A program made the position numbers and the translations under genes. Shown here one piece after another: positions 11,449 to 29,611 of a DNA stretch of 64,000 nucleotides. The stretch is from Clostridia bacterium (GTDB taxonomy: Bacteria > Bacillota > Clostridia > Oscillospirales > Acutalibacteraceae). A model generated the notes under the pieces. The model ran no database searches, was not told the origin of the DNA, and was given only the letters and a program-made list of their open reading frames with translations. Location of the stretch: assembly GCA_017465505.1 (NCBI GenBank), contig JAFTWB010000022.1, positions 57,558-121,557 on the forward strand. The letters are read 5' to 3'. The stretch's first letter is position 1. Each line of letters opens with the position of its first letter.

Positions 11449-14400
11449 ATGAGTAATAGTAAGACACTCGGCAAAAGAGTACTTGCCGTAATTCTTACAG
11501 TTATGATGCTTATGTCTACGCTGACAATAGCTATGACAGCATCAGCCGCTAATGTTGACCTTGCTCCCACAGGTGCAAACGTTCCTGCCGGACAGACACT
11601 GTATCTGAATCCTAACATCTGGAACAAAGATGGTGCCCGTTTTGCTATGTATGGCTGCAACGGTACTGCCGCTGCCGAGTGGGTTAGCATGAGCCCTGTA
11701 CCCGGAGATGGAAGCACTTTCCAGGGTACTTTTAAAACAGGCCCTCATACGAATGTTATTTTCGTTCGTATGAATGGTTCTAACCAGACAAACGATTGGA
11801 ACAATAAGTGGAACCAGACAGCTAATCTTACATGGGATGGCGCAAAGAGCCTCTTTACCGTTACATCCTGGGACAACCAGAGCTCAGGCTGGACTGACTA
11901 CACCGCTCCTGAACTTCCCAAGGCCGGTGACGCTTCTGATTACTACTTTATGGGTACATTGTCCGACTGGGCAACCGGTGCCAACATGGTTTATACTGAC
12001 GACATCGATGTTGTTACTGTAACATTTAAGGATGTTGCAGCAGGCAACTACGAGTTTAAGGTTAAGACAGGTAGCACATGGTATGGTGTTTCTCAGCTCG
12101 GCACAACAATCAGCCCTGCTGACGGTGGTAAACTTTCCGGTTCTGATAATGTAACATTGGCAGCTACCGGCGGTGATTACACATTTAATTACAAGGTTTC
12201 TACCGGTAAACTTTCAATTGTTTACTCTGCTCCCGTTGTTGAAACAACAACAGTTCCTGCAACTACAACAGTTCCCGTAACTACAACTGTTCCTGCTACA
12301 ACAACTCCCGTAGAAACATCTTCCGTAGCAGCTGAGACAGATCCTGTTGAAACAACAACAGCTCCTGCAACAGAGCCTGCTACAACTACTCCTGCTACAA
12401 CAGTTCCTGCTACAACTACAACTCCTGTAGCCGAAACAACAACAGCTCCCTCAACACAGCCTGCTACAACAACTCCTGCAGATGTGAATATCGACCTTCC
12501 CTGGTCAAAAGATAGCGGCCTCTATGCTTATGCAGGCACAAGTGTCAGCAGCACAAGCGTAAATGCTTGGCAGCGTTGGCACGAGAATGGCGGCAAGCGT
12601 TACTTCCTGCTTGCTCCCACAGCTTCTGACACAGAAGTTATCATTTACAGCACATACACAAGCGACGTTAAAGTTAACGGCGTAACAATCAAGCCCGGTG
12701 AGTTTGAGGTTGTTCCTTATGTTGACGGTACAACATACACTTGCTCCGGTGCAACAACTCAGTCCGTTAAAATCAGCAAGACCGACGCAGAGGGCGTTAT
12801 CTACGTTAACTCTAAAGATGGTATGGTAACTGTTAACGACGATTCTGCTGAAACAGAAACCGAGCGTAACGCTTCCTACGACCTTTTTGCTTTCCTTACA
12901 GGCGGCACAAAGAACCGTGAGGGTGCAGGTGTTGCAGGTGCAGTTGCTTCTGCTGAAAACGGCGTTAACGACGCAGCAACAATCAAGAAGATTAAAGGCC
13001 GTGGTAACTCCACTTGGTCTGAAACAAAGAAGCCCTTTAACATTACTTACAAAGACAACATCGAGCTTGATGGTATGAAAGGTAAGAAGTGGTCTCTCCT
13101 TGCAAACGCAAAGGACGGCTCACTGCTGAGAAACCGCCTTGTTTACGATATGGCAAACGAAGTTGAGATGACTTACGCTTGCGATTCCAGATTCGTAGAC
13201 TTCTATGTAAACGGCTACTACAAGGGTTCTTACCAGCTCACTCAGAAGATTGAGATGGGTAAAAACACAGTTATGCCTGACCTCACCGAGCCTGAAGTTG
13301 AAGATGTTATCGACGATGAAACAGGCGAAACAATCGAGTATCCCAAGACCGACTTCGACTTTATCCTTGAGCTTGACACAGAGGAAAACGCAGCATCAGC
13401 TAACGATAAGGGCTTCAACACTAAGGAAGGTCAGTGGATGACTTACAAGACTCCTGATGATCCTGCAACAGAGCAGATTGCTTTCATCAAGGCAAAATAT
13501 CAGGCAGTTGAAGACGCACTTTACGGCGACAATATGGCAGAACTTGAAAAACTCGTTGATATCGAGGACTTCGCAAAGGCTTACCTTATTAACGAAGTTA
13601 CAAAGAACATCGACGCCGGTGTTACAAGCTGCTACTTCACTTATAATTCCACAGACGGCAAGTTCTACGCTTCTCCCGTTTGGGACTACGATAACTCTAT
13701 CGGTAACCTTCCCGACAACGGCGGCAGAACCGATATGAGCGGCAAGGTTCTTGACCTCGACAGCCCAGCAGGCTGGTACGCAAGAGAGCTCAAGCACTAC
13801 GCAAGAAATGCAAGAAGCATTTTCTCCGAGGCTTGGTACAACACATCCAAGACTGCTGACGGCAAGAAGTTCTCTGACATCGTTTTAGATGTTTGGAATG
13901 CAGAGTTTGCAGGTCTTGTTGACAAGCTTGAGGGCACAGCTGACGCCACAGGCAGACTTAACACAATCGATGGTTATATGTCTAACCTTGCTAAGTCCGG
14001 TGCATTCAACACTAAGGCTGATGGCGCTTATGTAACCGCTGACTGGAAAGCAAACAAGACTTCTCTCACAATGTATGACTACAACGCAGAGAAGAACACA
14101 CTTTCTCAGACAACAAAGAACTATTCCGCTTCCTTCGAGGGTGAGGCAGACTACGCAGGCGATTGGCTCATCTCCAGACTTAACTGGATGGCAGCTCAAT
14201 ATGCTTCTGCTGAAGTAGATGTTCCTGACAATCCTGATGGTTACATTACCCTCTTCTTTACAAACAACTGGTGCTTCGAGAGCCAGAACGCTTACTATTG
14301 GGGCGGTTCTGCTGAGTCTATGGAGTGGCCCGGCGTTTCTATGTCATTCTATAAGACAAACGATGACGGCGAGGACGTTTACAGTATAGCAGTTCCTGCT

Positions 14401-16782
14401 GATATCGAAGGCATCATCTTCAATGGTATCAGTGATATCGACCACACTACAATCAGACAGACAGTTGACATCAAGGAAGGTCTTGTTGACAGAGCAGGCT
14501 TCTACTGCAAAGACGAGGCTAACGGCAAGATTAACGTTGGCACATATATGATGCCCGTTGAGGAAACAACAACACCTGTTGAAACTTCTTCTTCCGTGGT
14601 TGTAACATCCTCTACTCCTGTTGAAACTTCTTCTTCCGCAGTTGCAACAGATCCCACAGAAACAACATCAACACCCGTTGAAACATCCTCTTCCGTAGTT
14701 GCAACTGATCCTACAGAAACAACAACTCCCGTTGAGGATACAACAGTTACAGTTCCTGCAAAGACAACAATAACTCTCTTCTTCACAAACAACTGGTGCT
14801 TCGAAAGCCAGAACGCATACTTCTGGGGCGGTTCTGCTGAGTCTATGGAGTGGCCCGGCGTGAAGATGGAGTACTATGGCGAGAACAGCGACGGTGAAGA
14901 TGTTTACTACATTGAAGTTCCTGCTGACATCGACGCAATTATCTTTAACGGTATCAGCGATATCGACCACAAGACAATCAGACAGACAGTTGACATCGAG
15001 GAAGGCCTTGTTGACAGAGCAGGCTTCTACTGCAAGGATGAAGCTAATGGTAAGATCAACGTTGGCACATATATGATGCCCGTTGAGGAAACAACAACAC
15101 CTGTTGAAACTTCTTCTTCCGTGGTTGTAACATCCTCTACACCTGTTGAAACTTCTTCTTCCGTAGTTGCAACAGATCCCACAGAAACAACATCAACTCC
15201 TGTTGAAACTTCTTCATCTGCAGTTGAAAACACAACATCAACTCCTGCGATTGAGGATGATGTTTACGTTGTAACTTGGGCAGATTCTGACAAGTACACA
15301 GTTGCCACAGACCTTGACGCAACAGCAGTTAAGGCAGGCACAGACTTTACATTCACAGTAACTGCCGCTGAGGGCTATAAGGTAGCAGCTGTTATCGCTG
15401 ATATGACTGTTATTGAGGCAGTAGACGGCACTTACACAATTAACGTAACCAAGGACACAACTATCCTGGTAATTACTGCCGAGGACACAACTGTTCCCGA
15501 GGTTATGAAGTTCACAGTAACATTTACCGATAAGGACGGCAACGAGCTCGATAAGCAGACAGTTGAGTACGGCAAGGCAGCAACAGCTCCCACTGCACCC
15601 ACAGTAGAAGGCTATGACTTTATCGGCTGGTCCGAGGACTTTGACTTCGTAACAAAGGACATCACAGTTAAGGCACAGTACAATAAGATTGTTACTCCTC
15701 CCACACCTGCTACAACAGGCACACTTAAGATTGAGCTTGCAGGTGGTTCCAGCTTTACAATCTCCATTAACGGCGGCGTAGCCCGTCCTCAGGGTTCAAC
15801 CTTCACAAGCACTTCTGTTCCCGTTGGTGCAACAGTAACAGTTGTAGCAAAGTCAACAGATGATAAGGAGTTCTTAGGTTGGGTAAATCCCGCAACAGGC
15901 TTTGTTGCTTCCACAGATTACGAGTTCACCTTCACAACCTCCGGTAACGACTTCTTCAAGGCAATGTTCAACACCAAGGTAGAGGGTGTAAATATGGTAT
16001 CCTTCTACAATGATGTTACAAAGCAGTATCTTGATATGCAGTACTATGCAGCAACAGATACAATCAGCTGGCCCACAGTTAAGCCCGTTCAGGCAGGTTA
16101 CGACTTCACAGGCTGGAATATGACAGCAGAAGAAATCGCAGCAGAGCTTGCAGCAGGCAAGGACGTAACAGTTCTTCCTAAGTGGGAGAAGCAGCTTGTA
16201 TACGTAACTCTTGATGTAGTTAACGGTACAGTAACAGCAGGTGAAGAGAAAGACGGCAAGTATCTTGCAAACACAAAGACAACCGTTAAGGCAAACGCAG
16301 CTGCTGAAGGTTATGCATTCGCTTACTGGACATTAGACGGTAAGGTAGTAACATACAACGAAGAGTATAGCTTCTATCCCAAGGCAGACGCTAAGCTTGA
16401 GGCAGTATTTGTAGAAGACGGCACTGCAATTGACTACAAGGTTCTTGCAGAAGTTTCCAGCTTCACAGCAACAGAATACGGTCAGTTCGGTATCTCCTGG
16501 TATGTACCCGAAGCACAGAACAACCTTACTTACAAGGGTGCAGGTATCGTAGCAGTTAAGGATAACCTCTACAACGAAAGCACATTTGTTCACGGTACAA
16601 CAGACGCTAACGTTTGGGACAGAACTCTTAATACAGACAAGGCAAACGGCTCTGCTGTATGGACAGGTCCTGTATATTCCGGCGAAACATGGATTGCTGC
16701 TTGTTGGGTACAGTACACCGACAACGCAACAGGCGAAACAGCAGTTGTATACTCTGACCTCTTCACAGTAACAAAGGAGTAA
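11449..16782 (+). CDS. Giant secreted CotH-kinase protein with starch-binding modules
   Basis: 1777 residues; AGGAGG lies 8 bases before the ATG. A signal peptide (1-33) ends MTASA. Two beta-sandwich modules follow (~35-165, and ~170-265 with YYFMGTLSDW like SusE/X25 modules), then a Thr/Pro linker. The CotH-type domain spans ~470-900: KGRGNSTW, KKWSLLANAKD..LLRNRL, NGYYKGSYQL, DFDFILELD and the metal/catalytic-type PVWDYDNSIGN. CotH proteins are atypical secreted kinases. Two near-identical CBM26-like modules (~930-1038 and 1104-1213; ITLFFTNNWCFESQNAY) follow, separated by PVETSSS linkers. After these come InlB/Listeria-Bacteroides repeats (GYDFIGW, GYDFTGW) and a C-terminal beta domain. 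No dockerin or sorting signal is visible, so attachment to the cell is unexplained. Confidence 0.88.
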   Translation: MSNSKTLGKRVLAVILTVMMLMSTLTIAMTASAANVDLAPTGANVPAGQTLYLNPNIWNKDGARFAMYGCNGTAAAEWVSMSPVPGDGSTFQGTFKTGPHTNVIFVRMNGSNQTNDWNNKWNQTANLTWDGAKSLFTVTSWDNQSSGWTDYTAPELPKAGDASDYYFMGTLSDWATGANMVYTDDIDVVTVTFKDVAAGNYEFKVKTGSTWYGVSQLGTTISPADGGKLSGSDNVTLAATGGDYTFNYKVSTGKLSIVYSAPVVETTTVPATTTVPVTTTVPATTTPVETSSVAAETDPVETTTAPATEPATTTPATTVPATTTTPVAETTTAPSTQPATTTPADVNIDLPWSKDSGLYAYAGTSVSSTSVNAWQRWHENGGKRYFLLAPTASDTEVIIYSTYTSDVKVNGVTIKPGEFEVVPYVDGTTYTCSGATTQSVKISKTDAEGVIYVNSKDGMVTVNDDSAETETERNASYDLFAFLTGGTKNREGAGVAGAVASAENGVNDAATIKKIKGRGNSTWSETKKPFNITYKDNIELDGMKGKKWSLLANAKDGSLLRNRLVYDMANEVEMTYACDSRFVDFYVNGYYKGSYQLTQKIEMGKNTVMPDLTEPEVEDVIDDETGETIEYPKTDFDFILELDTEENAASANDKGFNTKEGQWMTYKTPDDPATEQIAFIKAKYQAVEDALYGDNMAELEKLVDIEDFAKAYLINEVTKNIDAGVTSCYFTYNSTDGKFYASPVWDYDNSIGNLPDNGGRTDMSGKVLDLDSPAGWYARELKHYARNARSIFSEAWYNTSKTADGKKFSDIVLDVWNAEFAGLVDKLEGTADATGRLNTIDGYMSNLAKSGAFNTKADGAYVTADWKANKTSLTMYDYNAEKNTLSQTTKNYSASFEGEADYAGDWLISRLNWMAAQYASAEVDVPDNPDGYITLFFTNNWCFESQNAYYWGGSAESMEWPGVSMSFYKTNDDGEDVYSIAVPADIEGIIFNGISDIDHTTIRQTVDIKEGLVDRAGFYCKDEANGKINVGTYMMPVEETTTPVETSSSVVVTSSTPVETSSSAVATDPTETTSTPVETSSSVVATDPTETTTPVEDTTVTVPAKTTITLFFTNNWCFESQNAYFWGGSAESMEWPGVKMEYYGENSDGEDVYYIEVPADIDAIIFNGISDIDHKTIRQTVDIEEGLVDRAGFYCKDEANGKINVGTYMMPVEETTTPVETSSSVVVTSSTPVETSSSVVATDPTETTSTPVETSSSAVENTTSTPAIEDDVYVVTWADSDKYTVATDLDATAVKAGTDFTFTVTAAEGYKVAAVIADMTVIEAVDGTYTINVTKDTTILVITAEDTTVPEVMKFTVTFTDKDGNELDKQTVEYGKAATAPTAPTVEGYDFIGWSEDFDFVTKDITVKAQYNKIVTPPTPATTGTLKIELAGGSSFTISINGGVARPQGSTFTSTSVPVGATVTVVAKSTDDKEFLGWVNPATGFVASTDYEFTFTTSGNDFFKAMFNTKVEGVNMVSFYNDVTKQYLDMQYYAATDTISWPTVKPVQAGYDFTGWNMTAEEIAAELAAGKDVTVLPKWEKQLVYVTLDVVNGTVTAGEEKDGKYLANTKTTVKANAAAEGYAFAYWTLDGKVVTYNEEYSFYPKADAKLEAVFVEDGTAIDYKVLAEVSSFTATEYGQFGISWYVPEAQNNLTYKGAGIVAVKDNLYNESTFVHGTTDANVWDRTLNTDKANGSAVWTGPVYSGETWIAACWVQYTDNATGETAVVYSDLFTVTKE
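14239..15230 (+). repeat. Direct duplication of CBM26 module plus linker
   Basis: Two ~400-base copies (from about 14239 and about 14764) encode the same module and PVETSSSVV linker with few changes. Their DNA-level similarity points to recent in-frame duplication and a likely site for recombination. Confidence 0.8.
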
Positions 16783-16824
16783 TCAGTTAAGTCTGATTAT
16801 AAATATGTTCTCTGAATGAACTTC

Positions 16825-16850
16825 ACCCCGACAGGCGAGCCTGTCGGGGT
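16825..16850 (+). terminator. Hairpin after the CotH gene
   Basis: A 10-bp stem ACCCCGACAG / CTGTCGGGGT with loop GCGAGC, 43 bases after the stop. It is followed by GTTTGG rather than a clean T run. Confidence 0.65.
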
Positions 16851-16885
16851 GTTTGGTATAATTGCATAATTTTTCAAAAATAACC

Positions 16886-16913
16886 TTGACATATAGGTAG
16901 TATTTGCTATAAT
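16886..16913 (+). promoter_or_regulatory. Strong promoter of the 35-codon peptide gene
   Basis: TTGACA (16886-16891), 16-base spacer, TATAAT (16908-16913), 32 bases before the ATG. The GGAGGTG ribosome site at 16931 is near-perfect, so high expression is expected. Confidence 0.85.
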
Positions 16914-16944
16914 AAAATAAGAATATTATAGGAGGTGAAAAGGA

Positions 16945-17052
16945 ATGAAATACACAGCTCCCGAGATGGAGGTTGTTATGTTCGAGACAGAGGAAGTTAT
17001 GGCTGCTTCTAACAACAACAATGACGAGAAAGAGGATCAGTTACAGTTCTAA
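16945..17052 (+). CDS. 35-residue peptide, candidate RiPP precursor
   Basis: A complete 35-codon gene between a consensus promoter and a terminator. It encodes MKYTAPEMEVVMFETEEVMA, then AS, four Asn and an acidic tail ending EDQLQF. The ordered, hydrophobic/acidic N-terminal half followed by a short low-complexity tail has the look of a leader-plus-core peptide. I recall small clostridial peptides with similar 'MKYxxPEMEvv.FetEDVi' openings, but cannot verify this here. The tail has no Cys, Ser or Thr, so lanthionine or sactionine rings are not possible in it; Asn, Asp or Gln would be the only side chains to modify. The next gene is a radical SAM enzyme on the same strand. The gene itself is well supported; its function is inference. 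Confidence 0.75.
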   Translation: MKYTAPEMEVVMFETEEVMAASNNNNDEKEDQLQF

Positions 17053-17911
17053 TCTGATACTGTTCCAAGCTTTATGGCGGCGCTTTGAGTCCGCCATATT
17101 TTTTTACCAAAAAGGGCGTGTTATTATCAGCAGACAAGAAACCTTAAGACTTGAGCTTTTCCCTGCGTATTTTGTGCCTGATATTGCTGACCGTTTCAAC
17201 GACAACAGAAGGGTACACGTTGTAAGATACGGCAGGTGTAATTATCGTTGTGAGTTTTGTTATTTTGGCAAAAAGCCTTACGATTCTGCACCTGAATACA
17301 CCTTGGAAAGCTTTGAGCAGAAGATATGGGAGTTTCTCAGATATAGCAAAAACTTCAAATTTACAGGCGGCGAGCCTACTCTTAACCCTTACTTGGCTGA
17401 TTTAATGCGTATCGTTAAAATATACGGTGCTCAGACTTTTCTGGACACCAACGGCTCGAATCCCCAAAAGGTCAAGGCTCTTATTGATGAGGGACTAGTG
17501 GATATTATGGGAATTTCTCTGAAGGGGCTTGATGAGGATTCTGCCTCAGCTACCGCAAATATCACAAACAAAAGGCTTGCCTGGGAAAATGTGTGGAAGT
17601 CTGTTGAGCTGGGCTCAAAGGCGGAGAATGTAAAGCTTATTATTACCTATGTAGCCTGCGAAGGCTTTTTTACAGAGACTGACCTTGATAAACTGGCTCA
17701 GCTTTTAAAGCCTTATCCCGATGTTACTCTTAAAATCAACAACTGTTACCTTGAGGACAAAATAGATTTCAGACGCAAGGGTCTGGATAAAACGGAGATT
17801 TACTCAATGGTGGAGAGATTTGTTCAGAGATATCCCGAGTACAAAGGAAGAACGGTTCTTTTCAGGGACCATGACTCCTGCATAGACCAGTCAAAAATCG
17901 CCTTGTTCTGA
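17021..17911 (+). CDS. Radical SAM protein, candidate peptide-modifying enzyme
   Basis: The [4Fe-4S] motif is C-x3-C-x2-C in RCNYRCEFC, followed by FTGGEPT (SAM binding) and LDTNGS. The C-terminal half lacks an obvious SPASM or second cluster motif, so it resembles small NrdG/QueE-size enzymes (about 260 residues of conserved sequence). The start is uncertain. The first in-frame ATG (17021) overlaps the peptide gene and would put a terminator hairpin inside the coding region. After that hairpin the only ribosome-like site (AAAGGG, 17111-17116) faces an ATT at 17123, which would give 262 residues. Read-through of the terminator would give a low enzyme-to-peptide ratio, as in many RiPP loci. 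The substrate is not proven. Confidence 0.8.
   Translation: MTRKRISYSSNLILFQALWRRFESAIFFYQKGRVIISRQETLRLELFPAYFVPDIADRFNDNRRVHVVRYGRCNYRCEFCYFGKKPYDSAPEYTLESFEQKIWEFLRYSKNFKFTGGEPTLNPYLADLMRIVKIYGAQTFLDTNGSNPQKVKALIDEGLVDIMGISLKGLDEDSASATANITNKRLAWENVWKSVELGSKAENVKLIITYVACEGFFTETDLDKLAQLLKPYPDVTLKINNCYLEDKIDFRRKGLDKTEIYSMVERFVQRYPEYKGRTVLFRDHDSCIDQSKIALF
17074..17105 (+). terminator. Intrinsic terminator between peptide and radical SAM genes
   Basis: A perfect 7-bp stem ATGGCGG / CCGCCAT with a 10-base loop, then A and seven T, 22 bases after the peptide stop. Probably partial, limiting expression of the downstream enzyme. Confidence 0.8.
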
Positions 17912-17930
17912 TTTTTAAAATTGATTTCAG

Positions 17931-17957
17931 CCACCTGAAAATTTTCGGGTGGTTTTT
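17931..17957 (+). terminator. Terminator after the radical SAM gene
   Basis: CCACCTGAAAA / TTTTCGGGTGG inverted repeat followed by TTTTT, 20 bases after the stop. Confidence 0.75.
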
Positions 17958-28915: not shown

Positions 28916-29611
28916 TTAGTCTGAAATGCCTCTGAGTTTGGTTACAGGAAGCTTACGCTTGATTTGCCTGTATATATTGCTCAGCTCTTCGTCAGAGTAG
29001 CCTGAAAGGGAAGAGTCAATAAGATTTCCCGAATCAACAAATTGCTGAAGAAAATATCTGTCGCAGCCTGAAATCCAGCCTGTGATTTTCAGCAAATCCT
29101 CTTCTGTGTGGAAGTTTTTTACAACAGTGGTGCGAAATTCCGCCTGTACCTCGCCTGAAAGAAGAAATTTTATGCTTTCGTCGATTGCGGTTAAGTCCAG
29201 CATAGCCTTGCCCGAGGTGAGAGCGTATTTTTCACGGCAATTCTTTATGTCCATAGCAACGTAATCCACCAGACCCTTGCGTACAAGGTCCTTGAGCTTC
29301 TTGGGAAAAGTGCCGTTGGTGTCAAGCTTAACGAGAAAGCCCATATCCTTGATTTTTCTGAGGAAATCCTCAATATCAGGCTGGAGCAGAGGCTCGCCGC
29401 CTGTAACGCAAACACCCTCAAGCATATTCTTTCTGGTAGAAAGAAAGCTCAGCACTTCTTCAGCAGGGATACCGCCTTCGCTTTGCTCTGTTACAAGCAA
29501 AGCATTGTGGCAGAAAGGACAACGCAGGTTGCAGCCGTAGGTGAAAACCGTTGCCGCCATTTTACCGGGAAAATCTAGTAAAGTGAGCTTTTGCAGTGCT
29601 TCTATCTTCAT
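28916..29611 (-). CDS. Anaerobic ribonucleotide reductase activating protein (NrdG2-like radical SAM)
   Basis: 231 residues. The radical SAM cluster motif is TYGCNLRCPFCHN (C-x3-C-x2-C), followed by VTGGEPLLQPD and KLDTNG. The opening KLTLLDFPGKMAATVFT is characteristic of the NrdG2/TIGR02495-type activases, which generate the glycyl radical of class III ribonucleotide reductase. NrdD is not in the window. It overlaps the upstream hydrolase gene by 4 bases. Confidence 0.88.
   Translation of the reverse strand: MKIEALQKLTLLDFPGKMAATVFTYGCNLRCPFCHNALLVTEQSEGGIPAEEVLSFLSTRKNMLEGVCVTGGEPLLQPDIEDFLRKIKDMGFLVKLDTNGTFPKKLKDLVRKGLVDYVAMDIKNCREKYALTSGKAMLDLTAIDESIKFLLSGEVQAEFRTTVVKNFHTEEDLLKITGWISGCDRYFLQQFVDSGNLIDSSLSGYSDEELSNIYRQIKRKLPVTKLRGISD

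Follow-up and report, generated by a model that had tools for sequence, protein, structure and literature searches.

A YxxP-leader peptide gene beside a radical SAM enzyme gene in a Clostridia genome: a candidate RiPP-like precursor and its proposed tailoring enzyme

The sections of PMC8326336 that deal with peptide-modifying radical S-adenosylmethionine (SAM) enzymes describe PqqE, of pyrroloquinoline quinone (PQQ) biosynthesis, as having no recognition element of its own and needing PqqD, and describe the radical SAM epimerases of ribosomally synthesized and post-translationally modified peptides (RiPPs) as tolerating varied cores and using a critical Cys. Stand-alone RiPP recognition element (RRE) proteins bind leaders and recruit enzymes, and some lasso-type matches that occur apart from other lasso genes may represent RiPP classes not yet characterised, as set out in the part of PMC7470986 on discrete RREs; YxxP is given in a section of PMC12710340 as the lasso recognition motif. 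Here we analyse a 64,000 nt stretch of the Clostridia bacterium assembly GCA_017465505.1 (Acutalibacteraceae, a gut relative of Ruminococcus; contig JAFTWB010000022.1, positions 57,558 to 121,557), hereafter the window, in which a gene for a 35-aa YxxP peptide (16945..17052) is followed by an open reading frame (ORF) for a radical SAM protein (17123..17911); window features lie on the + strand unless noted. We put at about even odds the reading that the peptide is a YxxP-leader, RiPP-like precursor and its neighbour a dedicated tailoring enzyme, with PqqD acting in trans, and the system is most likely a variation on known RRE-dependent RiPP logic.

The enzyme is rare, occurring in 6 of 161 genomes of the genus, and in all six the peptide gene lies directly upstream on the same strand. 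Two of these loci (L005 and L006) do not differ at any of the 2,922 bases compared, which leaves five distinct loci, and it is the recurrence at five distinct loci, with enzymes 58–71% identical, that takes the pairing beyond chance. Downstream neighbours vary, being metG and tatD in the window and GDSL-like and DUF4358-like genes elsewhere (tested against Pfam in G078). The peptide–enzyme pair is real and probably functional. A prior reading of the DNA from its letters alone (the sequence-only reading) had proposed that the enzyme modifies the peptide; adjacency in six of six genomes, a hairpin-bearing gap that recurs between the two genes and enzyme scores below the NrdG2 and QueE cut-offs favour this, but the peptide family is common without the enzyme. 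A second YxxP peptide gene stands behind the enzyme in G079 and G076 (L005 1518–1661), and enzyme-bearing G076 also has three close YxxP peptide genes by an IS3-like transposase frame, away from the enzyme (L045/L227 156–2112).

The predicted product of the peptide gene, MKYTAPEMEVVMFETEEVMAASNNNNDEKEDQLQF, divides into a conserved 22-residue N-terminal part (16945..17010), the leader candidate, which carries the lasso YxxP leader motif as Y3-x-x-P6 together with S22, and a hypervariable 13-residue tail (17011..17049), the core candidate. Mean pairwise identity among the five distinct linked peptides is 87% (77–95%) over the first 22 residues and 18% (0–47%) over the tails. Ser22 is nearly invariant in the alignment and could, purely as a suggestion, be a site of phosphorylation or cleavage. 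Chemistry on Asn, Asp or Gln side chains of the tail, proposed earlier from the Asn run in the window peptide, finds no support because the tails diverge so far between loci, and three of the five contain no Asn. Since the tails share no position, the reaction would either fall inside the conserved part or be tolerant of sequence.

Under the precursor-and-enzyme reading, a discrete recognition protein of the PqqD type, encoded at another place in the genome, would bind the conserved part, as PqqD serves PqqE, and present it to the radical SAM enzyme. The enzyme would then take a hydrogen atom from the peptide, whether from one set position in the conserved part or from alpha-carbons along the tail, whatever its sequence; the ABC (ATP-binding cassette) exporter and kinase-like protein encoded with PqqD may serve for export and phosphorylation. 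The PqqA/PqqD/PqqE system resembles this arrangement in its short precursor, a radical SAM enzyme without its own RRE and a discrete PqqD in the genome. It differs in that the enzyme here has no SPASM match, the tails have no fixed residues and hence no conserved Glu/Tyr pair, and PqqD is encoded at another locus.

The enzyme ORF, of 262 codons counted from the ATT at 17123, belongs to the radical SAM superfamily by Pfam (PF04055, E 1.4e-22, 81 bits against a cut-off of 29.5) and by its core fold. The cysteines of its C39-x3-C43-x2-C46 cluster motif (17237..17260) are invariant in the alignment, and a GGEPT motif is also present. Three extra cysteines, C179, C208 and C253 (17657..17881 from the first codon to the last), do not vary among the five distinct peptide-linked enzymes and are lacking in the relatives L052, L114 and L115, of which the last two are near-identical, so that the contrast rests on two independent relatives. 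Two of the three stand two residues after barrel strands in the secondary structure. They could act as a hydrogen donor of the kind seen in peptide epimerases, or else ligate an auxiliary cluster; Pfam gave no SPASM match in the enzyme, although these three cysteines could bind a cluster. The RiPP radical SAM epimerases (proteusin type, YydG/EpeE) offer a likeness in their critical Cys, while the match to YydG reaches only 28.6 bits against 300 and the enzyme has no RRE match.

The peptide family co-occurs with PqqD and with a kinase-like protein. PqqD was found over cut-off in 11 of 11 tested genomes against 3 of 14 controls, and as a discrete protein in all six enzyme genomes. A broad profile built from 30 peptides matched 16 genomes at E 0.001, with up to 15 matches in one, in a class sample of 148 genomes, taken to be Clostridia from the labels of metagenome-assembled genomes (MAGs). 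PqqD occurs in 62 of the 148 (E 1e-6, by PF05402, a family with room for PqqD proteins of other kinds). The kinase-like protein occurs in 46 (E 1e-8), and all 16 peptide-positive genomes carry both (hypergeometric p 2.5e-7 and 9e-10, values that treat the genomes as independent, though they are not). Peptide, kinase-like gene and PqqD lie within 1.6 kb of each other in 4 of the 16. The kinase-like P-loop protein, presumably HPrK-like, has invariant GxGKST and NDD motifs; no Pfam kinase family matched it over cut-off, and NCBIfam ScmC scored 15.7 bits against 125. HPr kinase, PqqD and an uncharacterised nucleotidyltransferase have been reported, in a passage of PMC7533575, from about 58, 46 and 30% of rumen genomes, respectively.

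At the PqqD locus of the window's own genome (L243; contig C25, 85000–101000) the order is large protein, YxxP peptide, leucine-rich repeat (LRR)-dockerin protein, kinase-like protein, PqqD, ABC exporter, NTP_transf_5 and HAD hydrolase. The peptide there lies below the reach of the broad profile at E 0.001; a profile scan run over the locus itself gave it 21.6 bits. G076, G079 and G088 repeat this order, as do G082 and G078 as far as read, the contig of the latter beginning at the LRR-dockerin gene (labels assigned by likeness to L243); G028 has a family peptide just before its PqqD gene, with the rest of the order absent there. A family peptide is present at the PqqD locus in five of the six enzyme genomes, the sixth locus being cut by a contig end. 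This locus scan adds to the link with PqqD, and the exception of G010, discussed below, takes from it. The sequence-only reading had noted that no exporter is adjacent to the pair, which holds locally; the same genome nevertheless encodes an ABC exporter, PqqD and the kinase-like protein beside another family peptide.

This gene set recalls the paeninodin/pseudomycoidin-type lasso clusters of Firmicutes (kinase, nucleotidyltransferase, discrete RRE and ABC exporter), which share with it the YxxP leader and, in the window's genome, kinase-like, PqqD, exporter and nucleotidyltransferase genes beside a peptide gene. Unlike those clusters, the system here includes a radical SAM enzyme and has no B2 transglutaminase-like peptidase: PF13471 was over cut-off in none of 21 genomes, with one weak match below it, and lasso peptide identity was rejected for want of this leader peptidase. 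An asparagine-synthetase-like cyclase was not noticed among the ORFs read at the PqqD loci, but no search aimed at it was made.

The peptide occurs independently of the enzyme. The window peptide alone, as query, matched 28 of 60 genus genomes at a loose E of 1, and a profile of nine close members matched 30 of 161 at E 0.001. Matches above 50 bits occurred in 11 of these 30, a line drawn post hoc on scores that are circular for several of the sequences above it, which the profile itself contains; the enzyme is present in 6 of the 11. The sequence-only reading had named peptide homologues with no linked enzyme as evidence that would refute it, and such homologues occur in many genomes, including 5 of the 11 with close-subfamily members. 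In the wider family, 95 profile matches at 86 loci gave 83 distinct peptides after removal of duplicates and of matches with no usable start. Upstream sequence of at least 450 nt was available for 78 of them. Of these 78, 53 begin no more than 60 nt from where an ORF of at least 150 aa on the same strand ends, the gap being 8–28 nt in 45 of the 53; no close-subfamily peptide starts within 60 nt of an upstream ORF end. The upstream ORFs look by eye like secreted surface proteins, and many of them run off the edge of their locus. In the open-licence PMC literature neither the peptide family nor the radical SAM clade was found described, which does not by itself show that they are unpublished.

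An alignment-based scan of genome_contigs gave, among the matches listed, the five enzyme-bearing MAGs, the relative L052 and at least 60 more distant radical SAM proteins, and a single-sequence scan of the same collection with the enzyme gave no match. Scans of viral_contigs yielded only distant radical SAM proteins or nothing, plasmids six weak enzyme matches, phage records three weak matches to a prophage-like relative, and PHROGs only weak generic radical SAM families. A phylum search (398 genomes) added one match, in G808, which by eye is an NrdG2-like gene behind an NrdD-like frame. In L052 (2878–6786), from a rumen Rhodospirillales MAG, the enzyme relative is 40% identical and is preceded by two further radical SAM genes and a methyltransferase-like gene. 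Prophage-like relatives occur as two copies in one genome (L216 9710–10450 and L217 400–1140), each immediately downstream of a gene for a tail-like protein and overlapping a frame of 94 aa that resembles a membrane protein.

Several observations weigh against a dedicated precursor and enzyme served by PqqD in trans. The peptides are spread much more widely than the enzyme, and the close-subfamily genomes G010, G069, G070, G088 and G090 have no enzyme match of this clade; their completeness ranges from 72 to 100%, so that in some the enzyme may have fallen into a gap of the assembly, and their tails look no different from the linked ones. No family peptide was found by profile scan of the loci around the distant relatives L052 and the prophage-like L114 and L115. 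As to recognition, no PqqD gene lies beside the window pair, and G010, which is 100% complete and has a close peptide without the enzyme, lacks a discrete PqqD, its sole match being borderline and within a frame of 461 aa. Of the 44 genomes holding both PqqD and the kinase-like protein, 28 have no peptide at the threshold used, and some lasso-type discrete RRE matches may be DNA-binding proteins, as the RRE-Finder authors caution in the part of PMC7470986 concerned. Finally, the window enzyme has no normal start codon. Its frame has a listed start at TTG 16973, inside the peptide gene, and contains no in-frame ATG, GTG or TTG after the hairpin; the ATG of its relatives aligns with ATC 17126, where a near-cognate start, a lost start or an assembly error are candidate explanations.

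Other accounts of the locus must be set against this reading. It is unlikely, in our estimate, that the enzyme modifies another target, such as the large upstream protein, and has the peptide as its neighbour merely because the family sits behind such genes. The short gaps of the 53 wider-family peptides and the large-protein ends that precede the enzyme loci would fit such an account, as would the prophage-like copies behind tail-like genes, where no peptide was found; yet similar large proteins stand at enzyme-less loci (L222 and L223), and peptide and enzyme are adjacent at all five distinct loci though the genes downstream of them change. We regard as quite improbable a further account in which the peptides act unmodified, as small structural or regulatory partners of the large upstream proteins, the YxxP likeness and PqqD co-occurrence have no functional meaning, and the enzyme acts on a small molecule or RNA. 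The co-occurrence of the family with PqqD and the kinase-like protein in 16 of 16 genomes, and the clustering of these genes in 4 of the 16 and in five of the six enzyme genomes, argue against it, and a constant N-terminal part joined to a hypervariable tail is the usual pattern of leader and core.

That the enzyme is a glycyl-radical activase, NrdG2-like, which has drifted beside the peptide we consider very improbable. Its best NCBIfam match is indeed NrdG2 (TIGR02495), and with the NrdG2/PFL (pyruvate formate-lyase)-type activases it shares its size, core motif and nearest solved fold, that of PFL activase in a second look with VIA-align. The score, however, is 87.7 bits against a cut-off of 131.15 (68.7–85.2 bits for the relatives); the clade stands apart from the NrdG2 rows in the tree (support 100/99) and has the extra cysteines; no glycyl-radical enzyme gene was noticed among the neighbouring ORFs; and the window holds a true NrdG2 activase gene at 28916–29611 on the minus strand (216.1 bits). 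On these grounds NrdG2 identity was rejected, as was QueE identity (TIGR03963, 24.9 bits against 260.1); 48 NCBIfam families matched the enzyme, and the 25 of them that were listed all fell below their own cut-offs. PFL activase acts on the peptide backbone, and Gly alpha-carbon chemistry of its kind, suggested by GG in several tails, cannot be general because the window tail has no Gly.

Within 16886–17957 the promoter, ribosome site, 35-codon gene, enzyme motifs and terminator of the sequence-only reading are all present. A gene for a 1777-aa protein (11449..16782), with a signal-like N-terminus judged by eye, precedes the pair and is followed by a terminator-like site (16824..16851); ORF ends resembling it in sequence stand before the peptide gene at the other enzyme loci too, again by eye. 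The sigma-70 type promoter (16886..16913) reads TTGACA-16-TATAAT, with TG before the second hexamer, and the ribosome-site sequence ahead of the peptide gene is AGGAGGTGA. Promoter-like sites are no more numerous in the scan than in shuffles (3 against a mean of 2.5), so only the 12/12 match of this promoter stands out. Terminator-like sites number 4 against a shuffle mean of 0.8 and include 16824..16851 and the site 3' of the enzyme (17929..17954). Between peptide and enzyme a hairpin with 8 outer pairs, then a T run (17073..17098), is a candidate attenuator or leaky terminator. The intrinsic terminator claimed there stands in part: stem and T run are plain by eye and a folded gap recurs at the four other distinct loci (z −3.3 to −5.2), but in the window the folding of the gap does not exceed that of shuffled sequence (z −0.37) and the terminator scan did not list the hairpin.

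Close peptides without the enzyme have settings of their own. In G010, G069 and G088 the peptide lies between a large-protein gene and a GDSL-like gene, the G010 copy (L223 5994–13157) being inverted between the gene for a 1930-aa protein and the GDSL-like gene, with no enzyme of this clade. In G070 it stands on the opposite strand, upstream of a metG–tatD block resembling that of the window.

If the reading of the pair as precursor and tailoring enzyme is right, the locus would be a small, testable way into a widespread family of peptides that share a recognition protein, and the enzyme a radical SAM maturase that lacks SPASM and RRE domains and tolerates hypervariable tails; the family would have been hard to see since its precursors are scattered through the genome, far from the shared machinery. 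More tentatively, gut Clostridia may have an undescribed genome-wide system in which many YxxP peptides, mostly encoded behind secreted-looking large proteins, are served by one PqqD, one P-loop kinase and one ABC exporter, and in which a few Ruminococcus relatives gained a minimal PFL-activase-like radical SAM enzyme as an extra, tail-tolerant modifier for one branch. The products of such a system, if it exists, would form a new RiPP-like class linked to the cell surface.
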